From the NCBI GenBank assembly GCA_947625055.1, contig CANQMT010000013.1, positions 1-64,000 on the forward strand: 64,000 nucleotides of DNA, in the 5' to 3' direction. Every line of letters begins with the position of its first letter. Position 1 is the first letter of the stretch. The notes under the pieces were generated by a model. It was not told the DNA's origin, did no database searches, and saw only the letters and a program-made list of their open reading frames with translations. This DNA is from an uncultured Monoglobus sp. Lineage in GTDB: Bacteria; Bacillota; Clostridia; Monoglobales; Monoglobaceae. This document shows, piece by piece, positions 36,066 to 48,217 of the stretch. The position numbers and the translations under genes were made by a program.

Positions 36066-39000
36066 ATGAAAAAAATTGTTTCGGTTTTATTGATCGCGGC
36101 GCTTATTGCCGCTGTTTTTGTTCCGGTCGGCGCTGCGGAGACGGCGTATCGGGGCGGCATGAGCCTCACGCCCGTCTCGTATGACTCGACCGGAGTTATG
36201 CCCGACAGCGCCTATGTACTGGCCGGTGCGGGCGCGGAGCCGCTGATCATGATAAACGACACGATAACAACGACCGTCACGCCGAACGGAGACGGCTCTT
36301 TTTTGGTGACGCCCGACGCGCCTCTGACCTACAACAAGCTTTACACCTTCAGGCTTGAGGGCGAGGAGCCCGCGGTATGGACGTTCCAGACCGCCGAGAA
36401 ATTCCGCGTTGAGAGCACTCTGCCCGGCGACGTGGCGGACAGTGTTCCGGTCAACACCGGAATTGAGATCGCGTTTTCGCACGATGATTTTGATTTAGAG
36501 CAGGTCAAAAACGGATTTGAAATAAAGCCGATTGTCGCGGGAAACTGGGAAAAGCACGACAAGACCGCCGTGTTTGTGCCGGACGCGCCGCTTGAGCGCG
36601 CCGCCGAATATACCGTTAAGCTTTCAAAGGACATCGCCCGCCAAAACGGCGAAACTTTGGGAGAAGCTTATCGCTTCACGTTCACCACCGAGGGAGAAGA
36701 GGAAGAACGGAACAGCGGCGTATATCTTTCGGCCTATTCGGACTATGTCGAAGCTCCCACCGATACCGCGCCTGTGCTGGCGGTTTACGCTCACCGCGAG
36801 GACGGAAAAGATATTGATATCGCGGTGAAGGTTTACGCTGTCGCCGCCGAAGATGCGGAGGCGTATTTCACCGAGGATATTAACATGGCGCAGCTTTCGG
36901 AAAGGCGCGGAGCCGAGCTTATGAGCTTTTCACAAAAGGCCGACGACGAGAAGAAGCGTTACGGCGCGACTTACATAGATCTGCCGCGAGCCCTTGAGAA
37001 CGGATTTTATCTTGCCGAGCTCAGCGCGGAGGACAGGATTGAGCATGTGCTGATACAGTCGACCGACATCGGCGCGTATATTACGAAGGACAATGACGGT
37101 TATCTTATCTGGACGAACAACGTGAGCAGCGGCGGGCCCTGCGCGGGCGCGCGCTTCAGCTCGGACGGTTTGGGCGAGGCGGTTTCCGACGCCTCGGGCC
37201 TCGCTTGGCTTGCCGCCGCGGACACAGATGATGAGGAAGTTCGGCTTATCAAAGCGGAGGCGGACGGAGAGAGCGCCGTTTTCAGAGTTTATAATTATGA
37301 TTTTTATGACAGAGAAAACAAATATTTTTCGGCTCTGGAGTTTGACCGTAATCTGTATAAGCCCGACGACACATTGTATTTCTGGGGCGCGGTCAAGGCG
37401 ATCACGGGAGAAGAGCCGAAAAGCGTTATCGCCGAGGTTTACAGCGGCGGCTATTATTCGGGCGGCAACACGCCTCTTGTCACGGTCAGTGCGGACTGCG
37501 ATGACGGCGTGTTCAGCGGCAGCCTGCCGCTGCCGGACTTAAACAGCGGCGGTTACGTTTTGCAGATCAAAAACGGAGAGGATGTAATATGCTCCAAATA
37601 TTTTAACGTTGACCAATATCAAAAGCCCGATTACACGCTTGAGCTGACTGCCGACAAAAAGGCGGTTTTTATCGGCGACAGCATAAACTACAGCGTCAAG
37701 ACACAGTTCTTTGACGGCACCGCCGTGCCCGGCCTCGATGTGAATTTTAAGGCCGAAAACGCTTTTTTCGCGAACGAAAACGAAACGCTTGTCACCGATG
37801 CGCTCGGCGAGGCATCGGTCAGCGTGACTCCGTCGCTTGTGAAAAATGATAGGGCGGGTTATCACAAATCAAGCTACAGAGTGTCGGCCTATGCGAAAAG
37901 GCCCGAGCTGGGCGACATTTCCGACTCGGCCGTGACCGAAGTCCTGCTAAACGATATCGGGATCGGCGTGAAAAGCGAGTTTAAGGACGGAACAAGCGTG
38001 ATAAGCCTGCACTCCGACCTGCTCACGGTTGACAAGGTAAACGGCGGAGATGGCGAGCGGACAAACAGCGATGATTATATTTCGGGTCCCGACGTGGGCC
38101 GCGCGATCCGCTGCGAGCTGAAATATAATTATTATGAAGAGCGTCAGACGGGGACCGGATATGACTATATAAACAAAAAATCTTATCCGATCTATGAGTA
38201 CGACGAAAAGACGGTCACGGCTGCGAGCTTTGATCTTACCACCGACGGCGAGGGAAACGCCGAGTATTCGTTTACCCCCGACAGAAACGAGGGTAAGGGC
38301 GGATATTACACCCTTGACCTAAGCTGCGCCGACAGCCGCGGCGGAACGTATGTTGACAACGACAACTACATAAGGACGACCGAGCACCGTTTCAGCCCGT
38401 ATTCATACGGTTACTACCCCGACGGATATGACATAAGCTGCGACAAGGAGAGCTACGACGTCGGCGAGAGCGTGAACGTCAGCGTGACAAAGGGCGGCGA
38501 GCCCGCGCCCGACGGCAGGTTCCTGTTTTTGAAGGACTGCAACGGAATAAAGGACGCGTCCGTGACGACAAGCGGCGCTTACGCCACGGTGTTTGACGGC
38601 CTGCCCGAGATCTGCGTAAACTGCGTGATTTTTGATCCCGAAAGCGGATACACGGACATAGGTGTTGCGGAGGCGGAGTATGACACCGAAAAAAGCCGCC
38701 TGAGCTTTGAAATATCCACCGACAAAGAGGAGTATGCCCCCGGCGAGAACTGTGAGATCACGGTCAAAGTTTTCGGGCCCGACGGAACGCCCGCCGCTGC
38801 GAGCGTCAATATCAGCGTTGTTGACGAGGCGCTGTTTGAGCTTTCGGACTATGTTCCGAACACGCTCGAGCAGCTTTACGGAAATTTTTATTCAACGCTG
38901 AGAGAGGTCTACAGCTCTCACCAAATGCTGAAATACGAGTCGCCTATGGCGGCGGAAGCAACGTTCGCCACAGGCGGAGGGGGCTCAAACGACTCGTCGT

Positions 39001-40847
39001 CGAGCCGTGACACGGCGCGCGTCCGCTCGGATTTTAAGGACACCGCGTCGTTTATAAGCCTTAAAACCGACGAGAGCGGGACCGCCTCGGCGTCGTTCAC
39101 CCTGCCCGACAACATAACGTCGTGGCGCGCCGCGGTGTCGGCTGTGACGGACGATATGGAGGCCGGCAACGGCTCGCATGCGATAAAGGTGACGATGTCC
39201 GCGTTTATCAGCTACACAATGAGCAAAACCTACATGGCGGGCGACTCTCCCATGATCGGCGTCAGCCTGTACGGCAGCGCGCTCGGCGGTGACGAGGATG
39301 TGGTGTTCACGGCCTATGACGGCGTTCAATACGCGACAGCCCAAGGCAAACCGTTTGAGCGTGTGTATATTCCGCTGAGCATGGACGGAACCTTGGGTCA
39401 GCGCGAGCTTATAATATCGGCTGAGGTAAACGGCATGGCTGTCGACAGCGTTCAGACCGCGTTTGAGGTGGTTGACACCTATAACATGACCGAGCAGGCG
39501 ACGGAATACTCGTCGCCATACGAGCCGATCATACCTCAGTCCGACAGAAGCGTCAAAGTCATTTTCTCGGACGAGAGCCGCGCCTCGCTGCTGAACGATA
39601 TTTATTATATGCGTTACCTTTGCGGCGACAGGCTTGATCAGCGGGTTTCTATGACCAAGGCGCTTGAGCTGCTTAACAAATATTACGAGTACGAGTGCGA
39701 GATCCCCGATACCGACTGGAGCGCTTATCAGAGCGAGGACGGCGGGATCAAGCTGCTGCCCTACGGCGAAAGCGAGCCCGAGCTTACCGCGATGCTGACG
39801 CCGTATATTGAGGAGCATATTGACCGCGGCAGGCTTTGCGAATATCTGGCTTCGATCGAGGGAAACGCGAAGGTCCTGTATTCGCGCGCCGTCCTGCGCG
39901 AGCCGGTGCTTGACGAGATCGAGGCAATGTCCGCTGCTGACAATTTGAGCACCGTTGAGTATTTGTATCTGGCGCTCGCGTATTGCGAGCTCGGCGAGCT
40001 TGACAAGGCCGCCGGGATATTTGAAAGCCGCGTTGAAGCCGCGGGACTTATCGAGGACTACGGCACAATGATGAGGATAAGGGGCGGAGAAACAGCGGAT
40101 GAGATTTTGGAGAGCACGGCGGTCGGCGCGCTTGTCGCCCTGCGTCTGGGAATGAACAGCGCCGCGAAGCTCTACGGCTACACCGCTGCATACTCGACCG
40201 ACGATATATTGATCAACATTGAGCGCCTCGCGTATATCGCGGCGGCAGCCGAGACCCTGCCCGCCGAGAGCGGAAGCGTTTCGTATCAGCTTTATGGCCA
40301 GACCTTCGAGACCGAGCTTCGCGGGGGAGGCTGCCACACGGTCACGGTTCCCGCGGCGTTCCTGCCGGAGTTTAAAGTGCTCAGCGCCTCGGAGTCGATA
40401 AGGATGCTCTCGGTGTCCCGGGTCAAGATGAACGTTGACGAGACTTTAAGCCCCGATGTGAGCGTTGAGAGGGTATATTCAAATTCCTCAAGCGGAGAGA
40501 TAACCAACGCGTTTAGCGAAAACGACATAGTAAAGATCACGTTTAACGTTGAGTTCAGCGAGGCGGCTCCCGACGGCGGATATGTTATCACCGATTATCT
40601 GCCATCGGGCCTGACCCCGATCTTAAACGGCAGGCGCGACACGGGCTCGTTTATGTTCTTCTACGGCGGTGGCCAGCAGGTTCGGCTCTACGCCTATCCC
40701 GACAAGAACAACAAGGACACCTGCAGCTATTACGCCAGAGTCACAAGCCCCGGAAGCTTCACAGCCGACAGCGCGGTGATCCAAAACACATATTCAACAA
40801 ACATAATAGCCGCCACAAGTAAAGACAACGTAGTGATAAGCAATTAG
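36066..40847 (+). CDS. large exported alpha-2-macroglobulin-like protein without thioester
   Basis: 1593 residues after GGAGGACG. The signal peptide is at 1-24 (VLLIAALIAAVFVPVGAAE), with no lipobox Cys. Two Ig-like (Big_5) repeats cover about 30-215, then macroglobulin MG-type domains to about 980. They include ISVVDEALFELSDYVPN, the bacterial A2M mark, and a Gly/Ser/Asp-rich bait-like stretch (TGGGGSNDSSSSRD). The A2M core with LPDNITSWRAAVSAVTDD lies near 1020. Where thioester forms carry C-[LV]-E-Q the sequence reads GDRLDQ near 1187, so the covalent trap is lost. A helical domain and a C-terminal beta domain end the protein. It may guard the envelope against proteases, but no partner penicillin-binding protein is adjacent. 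Confidence 0.82.
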   Translation: MKKIVSVLLIAALIAAVFVPVGAAETAYRGGMSLTPVSYDSTGVMPDSAYVLAGAGAEPLIMINDTITTTVTPNGDGSFLVTPDAPLTYNKLYTFRLEGEEPAVWTFQTAEKFRVESTLPGDVADSVPVNTGIEIAFSHDDFDLEQVKNGFEIKPIVAGNWEKHDKTAVFVPDAPLERAAEYTVKLSKDIARQNGETLGEAYRFTFTTEGEEEERNSGVYLSAYSDYVEAPTDTAPVLAVYAHREDGKDIDIAVKVYAVAAEDAEAYFTEDINMAQLSERRGAELMSFSQKADDEKKRYGATYIDLPRALENGFYLAELSAEDRIEHVLIQSTDIGAYITKDNDGYLIWTNNVSSGGPCAGARFSSDGLGEAVSDASGLAWLAAADTDDEEVRLIKAEADGESAVFRVYNYDFYDRENKYFSALEFDRNLYKPDDTLYFWGAVKAITGEEPKSVIAEVYSGGYYSGGNTPLVTVSADCDDGVFSGSLPLPDLNSGGYVLQIKNGEDVICSKYFNVDQYQKPDYTLELTADKKAVFIGDSINYSVKTQFFDGTAVPGLDVNFKAENAFFANENETLVTDALGEASVSVTPSLVKNDRAGYHKSSYRVSAYAKRPELGDISDSAVTEVLLNDIGIGVKSEFKDGTSVISLHSDLLTVDKVNGGDGERTNSDDYISGPDVGRAIRCELKYNYYEERQTGTGYDYINKKSYPIYEYDEKTVTAASFDLTTDGEGNAEYSFTPDRNEGKGGYYTLDLSCADSRGGTYVDNDNYIRTTEHRFSPYSYGYYPDGYDISCDKESYDVGESVNVSVTKGGEPAPDGRFLFLKDCNGIKDASVTTSGAYATVFDGLPEICVNCVIFDPESGYTDIGVAEAEYDTEKSRLSFEISTDKEEYAPGENCEITVKVFGPDGTPAAASVNISVVDEALFELSDYVPNTLEQLYGNFYSTLREVYSSHQMLKYESPMAAEATFATGGGGSNDSSSSRDTARVRSDFKDTASFISLKTDESGTASASFTLPDNITSWRAAVSAVTDDMEAGNGSHAIKVTMSAFISYTMSKTYMAGDSPMIGVSLYGSALGGDEDVVFTAYDGVQYATAQGKPFERVYIPLSMDGTLGQRELIISAEVNGMAVDSVQTAFEVVDTYNMTEQATEYSSPYEPIIPQSDRSVKVIFSDESRASLLNDIYYMRYLCGDRLDQRVSMTKALELLNKYYEYECEIPDTDWSAYQSEDGGIKLLPYGESEPELTAMLTPYIEEHIDRGRLCEYLASIEGNAKVLYSRAVLREPVLDEIEAMSAADNLSTVEYLYLALAYCELGELDKAAGIFESRVEAAGLIEDYGTMMRIRGGETADEILESTAVGALVALRLGMNSAAKLYGYTAAYSTDDILINIERLAYIAAAAETLPAESGSVSYQLYGQTFETELRGGGCHTVTVPAAFLPEFKVLSASESIRMLSVSRVKMNVDETLSPDVSVERVYSNSSSGEITNAFSENDIVKITFNVEFSEAAPDGGYVITDYLPSGLTPILNGRRDTGSFMFFYGGGQQVRLYAYPDKNNKDTCSYYARVTSPGSFTADSAVIQNTYSTNIIAATSKDNVVISN

Positions 40848-41155: not shown

Positions 41156-44100
41156 TTATTTAAGCTCGTCGATAGAGCCGGCGTTGTAGATGTTATTAAA
41201 ACCCTGCTCTTTGGCGATCTCCGCCGCCTGAGCCGCGCGTCTGCCCGAAGCGCAGTAAACGATGATCGTCTCGTCCTTGTCCTGAGTGTCGAGCCACTGT
41301 CCGAACTCATCGACAGGCACGTTGACCGATCCGTCTATGCTGTCCTCGGCGTATTCCTCGGGCGATCTAACGTCGACCGCCACAGCGCCCGCCGCGATAA
41401 GCTCTTTCGCCGCGTCGCCCTTGATGCTCTCCTGGCGCGCGTCGGCGATAGCGATCTCTGCCGTTTCGCCGTTTCCGCTCAGGTAAAGGGTCTCGCCGTC
41501 GCTGCCTAACTCTTTGATGTCAAAGTCACACACCTTTTTGATCGTCGTGCACTTGGAGCAGGGGGTCATGGTTATCATGTATCCCCCGTCGCAGCCCGCG
41601 TAAAGCTGATCGCCCGCGGAAACGATGTCGTTGATAACCGGGGATGAGGGCGCGCCCTCATCCTTTTCGGCATAGCTCACGGGTGTGTGGTTGCCCCAGA
41701 TGTTGAGTGATTTTCCGCCGATTATCTCGTTTTTCCCGCTGTTGTTATTATGCGCGAGAGCGGTGAATGTGCCGTTCCAGTCAACAACCTTTATAAATGT
41801 GACATCTTTGCCGTTCAGTTCGTTATAGTCAATTTTTTCTGTTGTGCCGTCGTTTTTCGTCAGGGTTACGAGCGAGCCGTCAATTTCAATTTTTGCGGTT
41901 TCGTTTTCCGCTGAAAGTACATTCTGCGATAAGGGTTCGCCGACTGAGGCTGTTGTTCCACCCAGGTTATATTTCAGGGTGATACAGTCATGGTTTCCGG
42001 CGTATTTGCCGTCCGAGGTCAGCTTGACAAACAAACCCTTTGTTCCGCTGAATCCCTGTTTTATCGCAAATTGCAGATCGTTATATGTATCCCAGTTTTT
42101 GCCCTGAATGATGTTGACTGAGCCGAGACTGTTTTCGGGAGTCAAAAGCTTGTCAATTGTAGCTCTGTCCGCAGAGGCGACGTCGATACCGGCGGTATCG
42201 ACCGCGAAAAATTCCGCCGACGCGTTTCCGGCGTCATTTCTTGTCGCCGAATACAGATCAATGACTTTGAGGTTATCCATTGTCTGATCGCCGAAATAGA
42301 ATATATCGCCGCCGGCTGTGGTGTCTATAATTTTGCCGCCGCTTGCCGTGTTTGACGCTTTTTCTGTACCGGCTGTTTTGCCGCTTGAATTCCAGCTTTT
42401 GGCGTAATCCTCAAACTCGATCAGGCTATCAAAGTTGGTATCGGGAAGAGGAGCGGGGGTCGGTGTGGCGGTCGGCACGGGAGAAGGCGTTGCCTCGATC
42501 GCTGTCGCTCCGGGCTCGAACAGCACGCCGAACAGCTTCTTGTTGGAGCCGCCGCCGTATACGTAAACGGGAATTCCGGCCTTAACATTCATTTGAACAG
42601 CGGTGGCCGTGTTGTCGTTAATTCCGAATTCGGTTACGCTCTTGCCGTCTTGTTCGATATACATTTGTCTTGTGTCGCTCGCGGCGAATACCGCTGTAAC
42701 TACTCCGTCGCTGTCGGGTGTGAAGTATACGCGCCGCGCGCCTGCCTGGCCCTTTCCGCCCTTGAGCGAGCGGGTGAAGGTGTATGTCACTCCGTTGGTG
42801 TGTTTGTAGGTGATGCCCTTGTCGCTTGCCCAGCCGCCGTCACAGCTCATGCCGAGGGCGCTCTCGGCGGTTACGCCTTCTGAGATAACGAAGAATCTGT
42901 CATAAATGCTGTCGCTGAAATTATAGACATATATATCCTTCATTTCAGGCGCGGTATATACTGTATCTTTTTTCCCGGTCATTGGCTGCATTGTGTCAAT
43001 ATTGTTCCAGCCGAAGATGGAAACTTTGCTGCCGTCTTTGAAGCCGTTCAATAAGTACTTGCCTTTATCGGTAATATTGGCCGTTGATGTGTTTGTCAGA
43101 GCATTTGCCGAGTCATATCCGGCTCCGATCAGAATTCCCGACTCAAGGTTGGTGTTGACCGCGATCGTGCCGTTTCCTATCGAAACAGGGTCAATGTCTT
43201 CATAATTATATTCAAGACTTATATAGTCGAGGTTCGCGCTGTTGGTTTGAACATAAATCGTGCCGCAGCCGTTTTCGTCAAGCGACATTTTGGAGAGCTC
43301 GTAGCGGTTGATTTCCGCCGTTACTTCCGCCCAGTTGGTCCAAGCGCCTGTCGCCTGTGCTTTGACGGAAGCAATAGTCCAGTTGCTGTTCGGGAGCAGC
43401 GAAACGTTGATATCGCTGTCGCCCGAGTCCTTGGAAACTCTGAACTTGATACCCGTCAGTCTGTCAAGCTTAACGCCGTCAAATCTCAGCCACGAGGCTT
43501 TTGTGCTGCCCGCGTCTTTGCCTCCGCTGGCTCCCGCTTTTTCATCGTTCAGGTTTGCGCCCGCGTCGTCGTCCGCGTTTTCGCCCTCGATCTGGAGGTT
43601 GGCGTAAACGATAACGGAGCCGCATTTCTCGTTGGGATAATCGCTCGCGGTTATCTTATAAATTCCGTTGGTGTAAAGCGTGACTTCGCCTGTGGTCAAA
43701 TTGATCTCCGCGTTCTTTCTGGATGAGCCGTCCAGCCTCTCGATCGACCAAACGAGGTCGCTTGATACGGCGCTGCCTTCCGATATTGCCTCCATGGCGA
43801 ATTTTGCGGGATTGCTTTCGTTGATCGCGCCCGTTATTGATGTTGCCGTGGCTGTGATAACGCCTATTCCGTCCGCGTTATAATTGATCTCGCCGCCGGA
43901 TATTATGTTAGAGTCGGCTGAACGGACAGTGTAAGCTTCCGTGAGTTCGATTTTCGGAACAGCCTGCATAGCCGCTATAGTCTCATTCAGCGCGGTCTCA
44001 AGACCGTCGTCTATAAGCGCGGTTTCAAGCGTGGAGCGGAAGTCAGTATAAATTCCTTCGAGTTCGGCCCAATTTTCAGACGTATACGCGATCTTCGGGC

Positions 44101-47100
44101 ATTCCGCGTATACCGCGTCAAGACGGGCGAGATATTCCGCCTTCTTCGCCGGGTCGATTCCTTCGCGGTACAGAGAAACGACCGGGAACGAGTATTCGGC
44201 GCTGCTGCCGTCTTCCTTAGAAGCTTTTACCGTGATCGTGGCGGTGCCTTCCTTGGCGCCTGCCGTAACGTTTCCGGCCGCGTCAACATTGGCGACTTCC
44301 GGATTGTTGCTGCTGTATGTTACCGTTATGCCGTTTGCGGCAAAGTCGGTGATGACCTTGTCGTTTTTAAGCGTAACGCTGGCGTTTGCCGAAACGGTGT
44401 TCGCGGCGTCCGCGCCGTTGTTAACGCTGTATACTTTAAGTCCCGAAGGGATAGCGTAAACGCTCTTGACGGTTTCGGCGATAGTGCCGCTTACGCTGAA
44501 CTTAACAGTGTGGCTTTCGGCGTCCGCCGAGCTGCCGCCGACTTTGGCGGTGTACTCGCCGGGGATAACGTAGTTCTGCTGATTTGCCTCGTCAAAGAAG
44601 AACACGTCCGAAAGGTCAAGGCTGAATGTCGCGGTCTTGGTCTCGCCGGGATCTAATGTCACTCTTTCAAAGCCCTTGAGCTGCTTTAAGGGCAGCGTCT
44701 TGCCGTCCGCGCCGGGAACGGTTATGTAAAGCTGAGCTACCTCGGTTCCCGCCGCGCTGCCTGTGTTCTTAACGTCGGCGGTGATCGTCACGGTGTCATT
44801 CGCGTCCGCTGAGGCTTTGTCTATCTTAACGTTTGAATATTCGAATGTGGTGTAGCTTTCGCCGTAGCCGAAGGGATAAACCGGTGTTCCGCTGTAATAC
44901 TGGTAGGTCCTTCCGGGATATTGTGCCTCGGGGTTGTTTATGTCATAAGCCAGTTCGTAGCTTGTGAAATTGTAATCAACTCCGTCCACATTTGTTCTTG
45001 GCGATCCTATCGGCATTTTGTCAAGATCGGCCTTGGTGTACCATGTGGTGGTCAGCTTGCCCGAGGGGTTGACCGCGCCTGTCAGCACCTTGCCCAGAGC
45101 CTCGCCCTGCCTCTGACCGTTGTATGACGTCCAGAGCATTGCGGCGCACTTGTCCTTAAATCCCTCAACGTTTATCTGGCCGACCGTCTGCAAAACAACG
45201 ATCGTCTTAGCGGGGAACTCGTCGCAAATCTGCTGAACATGGCTCTGTGTTGTCGGAAGGTCAATAGACGCTCTGTCGTTTGATTCGCTGGAGTCAGCTT
45301 CGGTGGTTCCGCCGTAGGCTATGATATAGTCGGCTGTTTCAAGCGCGCCTCTGTAGTTGTCGATCGAGAAATCCGCGCTCGCGTCGATCTTGATATACAT
45401 ATCGCGGGTCTCGGTGTAGCCGCCGGTTGCTCCGTTGTACACGCCGGAGTTTACGGCGTAGGTGTCCGCGTTAGCGGTATTCTGGATCTGAACCGATGCT
45501 ACGGCCTGATTAATGCTTCCGTAGCCGACTGTTACCGTGACCTTGGGCATTCCGGGCATTGACGCCGCCTCTATAAGCACGTCGGTCACATTCGCGAAGT
45601 TAACGCTCGGAATTACGGCCACTCCGTTTGAGGTTATGTTCATAAGACCGTCTTCGCCCTTGCTCATACCGACTGTGTTTTTGGCGGTCGATAAGTCCAG
45701 TTTAAGGTCGCCGCCGCTGCTGCGTTTTAAGGTTATGCTTTTTATGTTGAACAAAGGTGTTGTGCCGCTTACGCTTCCGATAAGCTGGACCGTTGAGTTC
45801 GGGTTTATCTGCTTTACAGCCTGCGTTATTCCGTCAAGCGGATTTATAGTCTTTGTCGGCTCTCCGGAATAGTCGCCCAAAACAACATCGTCAGCCTTAT
45901 CGCCGACAATGGCTATGTTCAAGGCTTTCGATGAGTCATTAAACGGCAGCGCGCCGTCGTTTTTGAGCAGGACCCAGCTTTCCTCTGCCGCTTTCTCGGC
46001 AACGGCAACATGTTCGTCGGTTTCAATAACATCGGACTTGATGTCCTGATACTTGGCGCCGTTGTCAAACTCGCCTGTTCTCATACGCTGAAGAAAAACG
46101 TTATACAGCGCCAGATCCAAGTCGTCCTCGCTTATCAGACCCGCGTTTACCGCGGCAACGAGCTGAGCTGTTCCGTTGCCGTCGCCGCCGCAGTCAAGGC
46201 TTGAGCCGGCCTTGATTATCTTGGAGACTGTCATGGCCGCCGTTATGTCCTCAATGTTCATATCGGGATAGAGCTTCTGTTTAAGAGGCGCTCTGCCGTA
46301 GGCGTTGTCCCAGGCGCCGCAGTCGCCGACGATAAAGCCGCCGAATCCGTATGCTCTTTTCAGAACATCACTCAACAAATATGAGTTGGCGCTCGAGGCG
46401 ATATAGTCGATCTTCTGACCGTCCATTGATGTGAGTATCTCGCCGTTTCTGTAGAGCGTGGTTCCGTTATAAGAGCTCATTACCGCGCCCGGATCCGAAC
46501 TCATAACAATATCGCGGAACGCGCGGGAATAATACTCGCGCATCGTGCGCTCGTTCATGATCGAGGTTCCCGTCTGACGCTCGCCCTCGCAGTTGTTGGC
46601 GGCATAATGCTTGATTGTGGCGATGACCTTTAAATATTTTTCATCGTCGCCCTGCATTCCGCGAACAGCGGCGCCGCCGATCTGAGCCGTCAGAAACGGA
46701 TCTTCGCCGTAGCTTTCCTCGTTTCTGCCCCAGCGCGGGTCGCGCGCCATATTGATCGTCGGGTTCCAGTAGTTTAAGTCATAGCGCGGGTTCTTGCCTC
46801 TCGCTTCGGTGGACATGATATCCATGCTCGTCTGCATAAGAGCCGTGTCCCATGTGTTGGACATTGCAAGGCTTGAGGGAAAGCTTGTGGCAACGCCCAA
46901 TCTTGCAACGCCGTGTATACCCTCGTTCCAGTAGTCATACTTGCTGACGCCGAGACGGCTGATCGCGGGCGTGCCCTTGGCCGCGGTCTGCGCCGCTTTT
47001 TCCTCAAGTGTCATGCGCGAAACCAGATCGGCCGCTCTTTCCTCAAAAGAGAGCGATGTGTCCTGATAGGGCAGCAGATCGGCTGCCGCCTGAACTTCGG

Positions 47101-47272
47101 GCGTCTCGGGCCGGACCGTCTGATCTGCGGCCTGCTCGTTTTGGACTGCCTGCTCCGCCGCGGGCTGCGGCTGCGCGTTATCGTCCGTCGCCGCCAGGAC
47201 AGCCGCGTTCGGAGCGCAGGTCAGCAGCATCGCGGCCGCCGCTAACGCGGATATTGTTTTCCGTACTTTCAT
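41156..47272 (-). CDS. giant secreted GH3 glycoside hydrolase with carbohydrate-binding modules and a C-terminal rhodanese domain
   Basis: 2038 residues; CAAGGAGG precedes the ATG. The signal peptide is at 1-28. The GH3 barrel (about 85-390) has nucleophile D317 in GGFIVGDCGAWDN and KHYAANNCEGERQTG, closest in style to beta-xylosidase/arabinosidase GH3s. The GH3 C domain (about 440-785) is interrupted by a beta module at about 504-624. A fibronectin-like domain (814-914), a Big_2 repeat (about 947-1024), CBM6/35-like modules (about 1225-1350 and 1620-1740) and a short Cys-bearing beta region follow. The end is a rhodanese domain (about 1944-2038, VAVDVRSPEEYAEDSIDG) with active-site C2007 in YCASGRR. 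It probably acts outside the cell on hemicellulose. The rhodanese tail is very unexpected. An AraC gene is divergent. Confidence 0.9.
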   Translation of the reverse strand: MKVRKTISALAAAAMLLTCAPNAAVLAATDDNAQPQPAAEQAVQNEQAADQTVRPETPEVQAAADLLPYQDTSLSFEERAADLVSRMTLEEKAAQTAAKGTPAISRLGVSKYDYWNEGIHGVARLGVATSFPSSLAMSNTWDTALMQTSMDIMSTEARGKNPRYDLNYWNPTINMARDPRWGRNEESYGEDPFLTAQIGGAAVRGMQGDDEKYLKVIATIKHYAANNCEGERQTGTSIMNERTMREYYSRAFRDIVMSSDPGAVMSSYNGTTLYRNGEILTSMDGQKIDYIASSANSYLLSDVLKRAYGFGGFIVGDCGAWDNAYGRAPLKQKLYPDMNIEDITAAMTVSKIIKAGSSLDCGGDGNGTAQLVAAVNAGLISEDDLDLALYNVFLQRMRTGEFDNGAKYQDIKSDVIETDEHVAVAEKAAEESWVLLKNDGALPFNDSSKALNIAIVGDKADDVVLGDYSGEPTKTINPLDGITQAVKQINPNSTVQLIGSVSGTTPLFNIKSITLKRSSGGDLKLDLSTAKNTVGMSKGEDGLMNITSNGVAVIPSVNFANVTDVLIEAASMPGMPKVTVTVGYGSINQAVASVQIQNTANADTYAVNSGVYNGATGGYTETRDMYIKIDASADFSIDNYRGALETADYIIAYGGTTEADSSESNDRASIDLPTTQSHVQQICDEFPAKTIVVLQTVGQINVEGFKDKCAAMLWTSYNGQRQGEALGKVLTGAVNPSGKLTTTWYTKADLDKMPIGSPRTNVDGVDYNFTSYELAYDINNPEAQYPGRTYQYYSGTPVYPFGYGESYTTFEYSNVKIDKASADANDTVTITADVKNTGSAAGTEVAQLYITVPGADGKTLPLKQLKGFERVTLDPGETKTATFSLDLSDVFFFDEANQQNYVIPGEYTAKVGGSSADAESHTVKFSVSGTIAETVKSVYAIPSGLKVYSVNNGADAANTVSANASVTLKNDKVITDFAANGITVTYSSNNPEVANVDAAGNVTAGAKEGTATITVKASKEDGSSAEYSFPVVSLYREGIDPAKKAEYLARLDAVYAECPKIAYTSENWAELEGIYTDFRSTLETALIDDGLETALNETIAAMQAVPKIELTEAYTVRSADSNIISGGEINYNADGIGVITATATSITGAINESNPAKFAMEAISEGSAVSSDLVWSIERLDGSSRKNAEINLTTGEVTLYTNGIYKITASDYPNEKCGSVIVYANLQIEGENADDDAGANLNDEKAGASGGKDAGSTKASWLRFDGVKLDRLTGIKFRVSKDSGDSDINVSLLPNSNWTIASVKAQATGAWTNWAEVTAEINRYELSKMSLDENGCGTIYVQTNSANLDYISLEYNYEDIDPVSIGNGTIAVNTNLESGILIGAGYDSANALTNTSTANITDKGKYLLNGFKDGSKVSIFGWNNIDTMQPMTGKKDTVYTAPEMKDIYVYNFSDSIYDRFFVISEGVTAESALGMSCDGGWASDKGITYKHTNGVTYTFTRSLKGGKGQAGARRVYFTPDSDGVVTAVFAASDTRQMYIEQDGKSVTEFGINDNTATAVQMNVKAGIPVYVYGGGSNKKLFGVLFEPGATAIEATPSPVPTATPTPAPLPDTNFDSLIEFEDYAKSWNSSGKTAGTEKASNTASGGKIIDTTAGGDIFYFGDQTMDNLKVIDLYSATRNDAGNASAEFFAVDTAGIDVASADRATIDKLLTPENSLGSVNIIQGKNWDTYNDLQFAIKQGFSGTKGLFVKLTSDGKYAGNHDCITLKYNLGGTTASVGEPLSQNVLSAENETAKIEIDGSLVTLTKNDGTTEKIDYNELNGKDVTFIKVVDWNGTFTALAHNNNSGKNEIIGGKSLNIWGNHTPVSYAEKDEGAPSSPVINDIVSAGDQLYAGCDGGYMITMTPCSKCTTIKKVCDFDIKELGSDGETLYLSGNGETAEIAIADARQESIKGDAAKELIAAGAVAVDVRSPEEYAEDSIDGSVNVPVDEFGQWLDTQDKDETIIVYCASGRRAAQAAEIAKEQGFNNIYNAGSIDELK

Positions 47273-47410: not shown

Positions 47411-48217
47411 ATGCTTCCGGTTTATGAAATAAGACCCTCGGATCTGACGGTCAAGCGCAATGATTACCAACTGAGTTATCCGGAGCATATGCACGATTAT
47501 ATTGAGATAATATACGTGTATAAGGGCATGCAGAGGCTCAACATCGAAAGCGGCGGTTTTGAGATTCGCGAGGGCTGCCTCGCGGCGGTGTTCCCGGAAA
47601 CGGTCCATTCGTTTTCCGCGCCCGACGGACAGGACAAAAAGAACAATGAGGTGCTGATACTCATGTGCGCACCGAAAATGTTCGGCGGACTGTTCCCGAA
47701 CCTCAAGGACCTCAGACCCGAAAACCCGATAGTTGACAAGGAAGATATATGCGGCGGGTTTCGCTGCGCTCTTGAAAACATAAAGCCGGGCGAGAGTTTT
47801 GACGTGACATTTTCCTGGGCCTGCGTGATCGTTTCGTATTTGTTAAAGGCGCTGACTCTGAAGCACAAGTCCGACGGGCCGGTGACGGATATAACCTATA
47901 AGATAATAAAATACATAGAGCAGAATTTTACCGAGACAATAACCCGGCGTTCCATAGCCGAGCATTTCGGCGTGAGCGAGAGCTATATTTCGGCGATATT
48001 CAGCGGCAGATTCAAGATGAACCTCAGAAACTATCTCGGCCTTATCCGCGCCGAATATGCCGCGGGGCTTATCCGCTCGACAAGCGAGAGCTTTACGCTC
48101 ATAAGCCAGGAGGCGGGATTTGACAATCCGAGGACGTTTAATCGTATGTTTAAGGCGGCGTACGGGCAAACGCCGAGGGAATACCGCAGAAATATCAACC
48201 GTCTGATCAAAGATTGA
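47411..48217 (+). CDS. AraC-family regulator, cupin sensor type
   Basis: 268 residues. The N-terminal cupin-like half contains SYPEHMHDYIEIIYVYKG and the EGCLAAVFPETVHSF strand pair. The C-terminal pair of helix-turn-helix motifs (about 170-266) includes TRRSIAEHFGVSESYISAIF and the family end SQEAGFDNPRTFNRMFKAAY, GQTPREYRR. It likely senses a sugar and switches the divergent GH3 gene and perhaps the genes downstream. No membrane segments. Confidence 0.9.
   Translation: MLPVYEIRPSDLTVKRNDYQLSYPEHMHDYIEIIYVYKGMQRLNIESGGFEIREGCLAAVFPETVHSFSAPDGQDKKNNEVLILMCAPKMFGGLFPNLKDLRPENPIVDKEDICGGFRCALENIKPGESFDVTFSWACVIVSYLLKALTLKHKSDGPVTDITYKIIKYIEQNFTETITRRSIAEHFGVSESYISAIFSGRFKMNLRNYLGLIRAEYAAGLIRSTSESFTLISQEAGFDNPRTFNRMFKAAYGQTPREYRRNINRLIKD

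Follow-up and report, generated by a model that had tools for sequence, protein, structure and literature searches.

The C-terminal tail (approximately residues 1786 to 2038) of a GH3 glycosidase from an uncultured Monoglobus sp. is, with a probability of about 0.9, an accessory module that consists of the last three or four blades of a YCF48-like beta-propeller and a PspE-type rhodanese. On this reading, the module derives from, or has a common ancestor with, a propeller-rhodanese protein, exported and encoded by its own gene, that is a neighbor and partner of beta-xylosidase-like GH3 enzymes, and it became fused to their C termini in the Monoglobus group. The architectural statement is the best supported and is well supported: the tail is an accessory GH3 partner, a propeller with a PspE-like rhodanese, fused in cis. 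The gene lies in a 64,000-nucleotide stretch of contig CANQMT010000013.1, referred to here as the window. Neither the partial-propeller-plus-rhodanese nature of the tail nor its existence as a separate protein beside GH3 was part of the initial annotation of this DNA.

An intact GH3 gene encodes a C-terminal rhodanese

The gene is a single open reading frame with an ATG start and zero internal stops (Table 1). Pfam searches identified N- and C-terminal GH3 domains (PF00933 and PF01915), an Fn3-like domain, Big_2, a weak CBM6 match, and the rhodanese profile PF00581. These domains, along with a Sec-type signal peptide that is recognized by sequence alone and is kept in orthologues, agree with the initial annotation of the product as an exported 2038-residue GH3 glycosidase with a C-terminal rhodanese. 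The catalytic half resembles the GH3 beta-xylosidases and Xyl3A (7vc6, NF041776) and has a DCGA nucleophile motif. Beta-xylosidases were the closest solved structures to the GH3 part in a PDB sequence search, which paired D317 with the SDC motif of 7vc6. By homology, the nucleophile D317 and the acid/base glutamate (SESNDR) appear to be conserved. The NCBIfam Xyl3A model matched with an E value of 3e-137 but scored short of its curated cutoff, and the window protein differs from these enzymes in having 1,100 additional residues (Ig, CBM-like, and propeller-rhodanese).

TABLE 1 Features of the GH3 gene and its surroundings, in window positions
Feature	Residues	Position	Strand	Basis or remark
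GH3-Fn3-Big_2-CBM6-like-partial propeller-rhodanese protein	2038 aa	41156..47272	minus	
Sec-type signal peptide (MKVRKTISALAAAAMLLTCAPNAAVLAA)	~1-28	47189..47272	minus	sequence reading alone
GH3 catalytic part	~66-924	44501..47077	minus	Pfam, PDB sequence search
CBM6-like module	1230-1324	43301..43585	minus	Pfam, slightly below cutoff
About four beta-propeller blades	1786-1941	41450..41917	minus	model, fold matches, profile match
Cysteine triad (C-x10-C-x2-C)	C1894, C1905, C1908	41549..41593	minus	sequence comparison
Variable cysteine	C1915	41528-41530	minus	sequence
Rhodanese, PspE-like, short C terminus	~1947-2038	41159..41434	minus	Pfam, NCBIfam, structure model, fold matches
Catalytic-type cysteine of CASGRR loop	C2007	41252..41254	minus	sequence, copies compared
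Divergent AraC-family regulator beside GH3 gene		47411..48217	plus	Pfam
Alpha-2-macroglobulin-family protein with Big_5		36066-40847	plus	convergent with GH3 gene
Exported protein resembling pectate lyase (LPAFPGAEGGGKFSPGARG...)	1108 aa	50755-54081	plus	Pfam: weak DUF1349 only

PF00581 matched residues 1954 to 2030 with an E value of 6e-16 and 59.2 bits, against a cutoff of 22.2. The sequence CASGRR at residues 2007 to 2012 fits the six-residue CxxGx[R/T]-type catalytic loop, which makes the window rhodanese a candidate active sulfurtransferase. The loop cysteine is present in all tail copies that reach it, and the sixth loop residue is R, K, or W elsewhere. A structure model of residues 1779 to 2038 (mean pLDDT 92.7, pTM 0.82) contains approximately four four-stranded beta-blades followed by the rhodanese. 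Foldseek and VIA-align matched the C-terminal part of the model to solved single-domain rhodaneses, including PspE, with target-normalized Foldseek TM scores of 0.78 to 0.79 and Z scores of 13 to 15. PspE (2jtq) superposed with an rmsd of 1.1 over 77 residues at 36% identity (Z 13.4), and it is also among the closest solved rhodaneses by sequence. The profile match and the model thus confirm a rhodanese module with the full loop C2007-A-S-G-R-R at the protein end, and they dispose of a non-rhodanese fold. The segment from 41156 to 41450 had been assigned to the rhodanese; the domain occupies approximately 41159 to 41434, and 41435 to 41450 is part of the preceding blade.

The view that rhodaneses are normally cytoplasmic or stand alone proved too strong, since Escherichia coli PspE, among the nearest solved relatives of the tail, is periplasmic (PMC2593051). 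PspE shares with the tail its export, minimal rhodanese size, similar loop, and short C terminus, and PspE models were the best NCBIfam matches of the tail (NF007627, E = 1.4e-15). The scores were 57.3 against a cutoff of 102 for NF007627 and 52.3 against 126.3 for TIGR02981, and the tail is therefore not PspE itself. PspE is a free 85-residue protein, whereas the tail rhodanese is fused to propeller blades and GH3. Another rhodanese family, NF045521, has a short name that points to glyco genes (rhoda_near_glyco), but its better matches reached 39.8 to 44.3 bits against a cutoff of 145, which places the tail outside that family. A rhodanese also forms the C-terminal domain of larger proteins in CoADR-Rhd (3icr), persulfide dioxygenase-rhodanese (5ve3), and beta-lactamase-fold-rhodanese (3tp9); unlike the window protein, none of these is a glycosidase, and they are mostly involved in sulfur or redox chemistry.

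Purifying selection acts on the rhodanese part, with pairwise dN/dS values of 0.07 to 0.39 that are rough, some dS values being near saturation or very small. Relative to most sister species, dS was approximately 0.3 to 0.7 in the rhodanese part and 0.9 to 1.4 in the GH3 part (window 41159-41840 compared with GH3). The lower dS of the tail hints at recombination or gene conversion at the 3' end.

Three cysteines are conserved in a predicted partial propeller

Sequence comparison and the model identify the cysteine-bearing beta region before the rhodanese as the probable C-terminal three or four blades of a YCF48-like beta-propeller. The window tail aligned to positions 117 to 284 of a 288-position profile of the stand-alone propeller (E = 1.3e-14), with about four blades ahead of the rhodanese rather than a complete propeller. 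Foldseek and VIA-align matched the N-terminal part of the tail model to arcs of WD40/BamB-type propellers. For a complete propeller-rhodanese protein, the model (pLDDT 83.6) had a seven-bladed propeller fold, and its top Foldseek matches were YCF48 5oj3 and 5ojr (E = 7e-12).

The best Foldseek matches of the stand-alone version are thus YCF48/BNR-type seven-bladed propellers, which include a photosystem II (PSII) assembly factor (5oj3, 2xbg), and YCF48 also gave weak Pfam and NCBIfam matches. Those matches fell short of the YCF48 family proper, the best (both from locus L110) being 12.9 bits for PF14870 and 13 bits for NF010237 against cutoffs of 27 and 326. Identity to YCF48 is 11 to 14% over the matched length, and the proteins studied here differ from it further in lacking a photosynthetic context, in carrying the C-x10-C-x2-C triad and a C-terminal rhodanese, and, in the fused form, in keeping three to four blades only.

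We collected 51 distinct tails: 35 in near-full-length frames and 16 that are truncated where a contig stops, frameshifted, split, or genuinely separate proteins. The triad cysteines were found in all 51, which upholds the earlier suggestion that the beta region containing CSKCTTIKKVC (residues 1905 to 1915) belongs with the rhodanese. Alignment of 25 tails revealed four invariant cysteines (alignment positions C116, C127, C130, and C229, corresponding to window C1894, C1905, C1908, and C2007), along with invariant rhodanese G and D-x-R positions.

The fusion to GH3 is conserved in the Monoglobus group

In the genome that contains the window (2.21 Mb, 99% complete), PF00581 matched exactly three times, each time at the end of a giant frame (1687 to 2075 codons), and three of the five GH3 genes of this genome carry the tail. 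There is no further PF00581 match in this genome, which rules out a generic cytoplasmic rhodanese gene nearby. Across the Monoglobus-like genus, 12 of 12 genomes matched; most have three copies, and almost all of the matches lie in giant frames. All 35 of the near-full-length tail-bearing frames are GH3 proteins with the motif RDPRWGR. Among the relatives with names in the genome collection, uncultured Monoglobus from rabbit gut predominate, and Candidatus Roslinia and other Clostridia are also represented. Wider searches used a profile of the cysteine blade alone; this profile detected the tail in four of the nine genera of the family, with none found in the other five, and in 17 of 391 genomes of the class, where it is rare.

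An artificial union of the GH3 gene with a separate rhodanese gene through misassembly or sequencing error, as the initial annotation had allowed, has practically no chance of being the explanation. We found nothing in its favor, and the same fusion recurs in all 12 genus genomes, one of which is a single 2.76-Mb contig, in three paralogues, and in other families. This conservation therefore refutes an assembly artifact.

One paralogue family of approximately 1,680 amino acids, with GH3, CBM-like, and propeller-rhodanese parts, lacks a signal peptide throughout the genomes examined and keeps the tail. Its members are G000:C18:4266-9299 (L031) in the genome of the window (G000), L022, L026-L029, L074, L076, and L114. 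These proteins are possibly cytoplasmic enzymes with carbohydrate-binding modules, an odd combination. Several copies have the loop arginine replaced (CSRGIW and CNRGIW, last residue W), which may weaken sulfur transfer; the CSRGIW form occurs in many genomes. In L114 (G017) and L107 (G070), the cysteine blade is kept and the rhodanese has been lost, which makes the rhodanese dispensable, if useful. One sister genome also encodes a stand-alone lipoprotein-like rhodanese in a 145-codon frame (G002:C1:745426-745692, L004/L040) beside three tail copies.

Genes near the window GH3 gene include a LuxR/MalT-like regulator, alpha-2-macroglobulin, a MATE transporter, and a GDSL-type esterase. Homologs of the adjacent AraC-family regulator (37 to 62% identity) adjoin other tail-GH3 loci (L048, L049, L056, L068, L111, L114, and the C18 paralogue of the same genome). 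No sulfatase was recognized among the neighbor genes read or scanned, which encode sugar transport, regulators, and GH3; the proposed role in sulfated-glycan use thus found no backing.

Separate propeller-rhodanese proteins adjoin GH3 genes

The module also exists as a separate protein. At L068 and L072, the gene for an exported blade-rhodanese protein of approximately 250 residues immediately precedes a GH3 gene, which is followed by a dockerin-like gene; at L068, the tail-protein and GH3 genes overlap. Both GH3 proteins end at a jelly-roll segment (YGGGSNK...), the segment from which the fused proteins continue into the tail. In the assembly, the separate tail gene of L072 (L072:1338-2179) has a frameshift in the C-x-K-C stretch or immediately behind it, which may be an error or mark a pseudogene. 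L065 has the order GH3-type protein (its catalytic part lying beyond the contig end), dockerin-like protein, and 311-residue blade-rhodanese protein. The separate tail proteins of L065 and L068 carry a signal peptide. The small exported dockerin-like protein (L068:5839-6459, L072:6177-6821, L065:2082-2720, L066:188-832) is conserved next to GH3 and the separate tail gene, and cohesin domains occur on the GH3 partners of L108 and L109.

Full propeller-rhodanese proteins with a lipoprotein-like or membrane-anchored N terminus are encoded directly upstream of GH3 at the more distant loci L108, L109, and L110, and the propeller without rhodanese at L107 also adjoins GH3. The sole further case from a 398-genome sample of the phylum, L149, has sugar ABC transporter genes, propeller-rhodanese, and GH3 on the same strand. 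All separate copies with readable flanks (L065, L068, L072, L107, L108, L109, L110, and L149) thus adjoin a GH3 or GH3-type gene, a count of few and partly related loci from which L066, at a contig end, was left out. Family searches around G256, G203, and G070 yielded no additional stand-alone copies, and the pairing statistics therefore rest on few loci. The propeller-rhodanese and GH3 evidently belong together. Because the separate protein is encoded beside GH3 in distant Bacillota, the tail can be read as a fused-on GH3 partner (a "Rosetta stone").

Phylogenetic analysis, with the complete versions drawn as a distant group, put the separate short proteins, at middling support, in between two groups of fused proteins. 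This placement is compatible both with one fusion and a later split and with two fusions.

DISCUSSION

The catalytic-type loop and the cysteine triad suggest how the tail might work. In E. coli, PspE passes sulfur from thiosulfate on to thiols, and its reaction with dithiols produces sulfide and a disulfide (PMC2593051). Because of this activity, and because the conserved C-x-x-C dithiol of the blade adjoins the rhodanese in sequence, we favor persulfide/dithiol exchange as the chemistry that may occur in the tail. The module would pack against its GH3 enzyme and would act in the maturation, stability, or control of that enzyme. Sulfane sulfur would be carried by C2007 as a persulfide, with thiosulfate or polysulfide as the source, and C2007 would swap sulfur with, or set the redox state of, the putatively nearby blade cysteines C1894, C1905, and C1908. 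We offer this working mode tentatively, as one that may well turn out otherwise; the broader combination of a GH3 partner module with persulfide/dithiol chemistry, our best explanation as a whole, stands at even odds.

The propeller-rhodanese could instead be a noncatalytic or moonlighting scaffold that binds protein or glycan and holds GH3 to a partner or substrate, its cysteines being structural (a disulfide or metal site). YCF48 propellers bind proteins as assembly factors and have been solved with a D1 peptide bound, and a scaffold would fit with the cysteine blade outlasting the rhodanese in two lineages and with the copies that lack the loop arginine. The paralogue that lacks a signal peptide also keeps the triad; there, a disulfide becomes less probable, and a metal or free thiol gains in likelihood. 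Even so, deep divergence has left the loop cysteine, loop glycine, and D-V-R motif in place, a conservation for which a pure scaffold has no need, and we regard this alternative as possible but doubtful. A role in surface sulfide chemistry, also raised earlier, fares poorly as sulfide disposal given the paralogue family without a signal peptide and the two lineages that lost the rhodanese.

Tethering of the enzyme to the cell surface by the tail, for example, via mixed disulfides, is distinctly unlikely. In its favor, the secreted tail-GH3 proteins are not among the SLH-bearing proteins, and several stand-alone versions resemble lipoproteins or N-terminally membrane-anchored proteins. Against this, SLH domains are used widely in the same genome (129 matches), the tail is restricted to GH3 proteins and absent from other secreted proteins, and at L065 and L068 it is a separate protein with its own signal peptide. 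Retention of the tail by the paralogue without a signal peptide implies that plain surface anchoring does not account for the module. For these reasons we rejected a general C-terminal sorting or anchor signal as the main reading, and the anchoring part of the earlier proposal of a redox/anchoring module is improbable as a general role. Some of the SLH matches belong to giant surface proteins, encoded by 6649- and 10245-codon open frames. Detoxification, in which GH3 would release the cyanide of cyanogenic plant glycosides for conversion to thiocyanate by the rhodanese, is the sole textbook reaction that joins a glycosidase and a rhodanese, and the sister genomes come largely from rabbit gut. 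It is nevertheless very improbable: the GH3 part is closest to beta-xylosidases, the neighborhoods are sugar-uptake and plant-wall loci, two lineages have no rhodanese, and PspE, with a Km for cyanide of approximately 32 mM, binds this compound poorly and gives E. coli no protection against it (PMC2593051).

Compared with these alternatives, a GH3 partner module fused in cis remains the reading that we prefer. The conserved pairing of neighboring genes in distant Bacillota and their fusion in the Monoglobus group together constitute classic evidence for shared function. The parts are known folds and their pairing is new; we found no named family for the propeller-rhodanese/GH3 combination in the profile libraries searched, including NCBIfam, and, in the literature searched, no paper on the combination and none naming Monoglobus together with rhodanese, so that it is undescribed as far as these searches go.

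The pairing of the tail with GH3 joins persulfide chemistry and polysaccharide breakdown, two fields that are seldom linked. Degraders of plant fiber in the gut constantly encounter thiosulfate and sulfide. We therefore put forward, as a speculation with long odds, that the extracytoplasmic propeller-rhodanese is a dedicated glycosidase partner in which persulfide/disulfide exchange between the rhodanese cysteine and the propeller triad would switch or mature GH3, and that plant-glycan breakdown in the gut would thereby answer to ambient sulfane sulfur.
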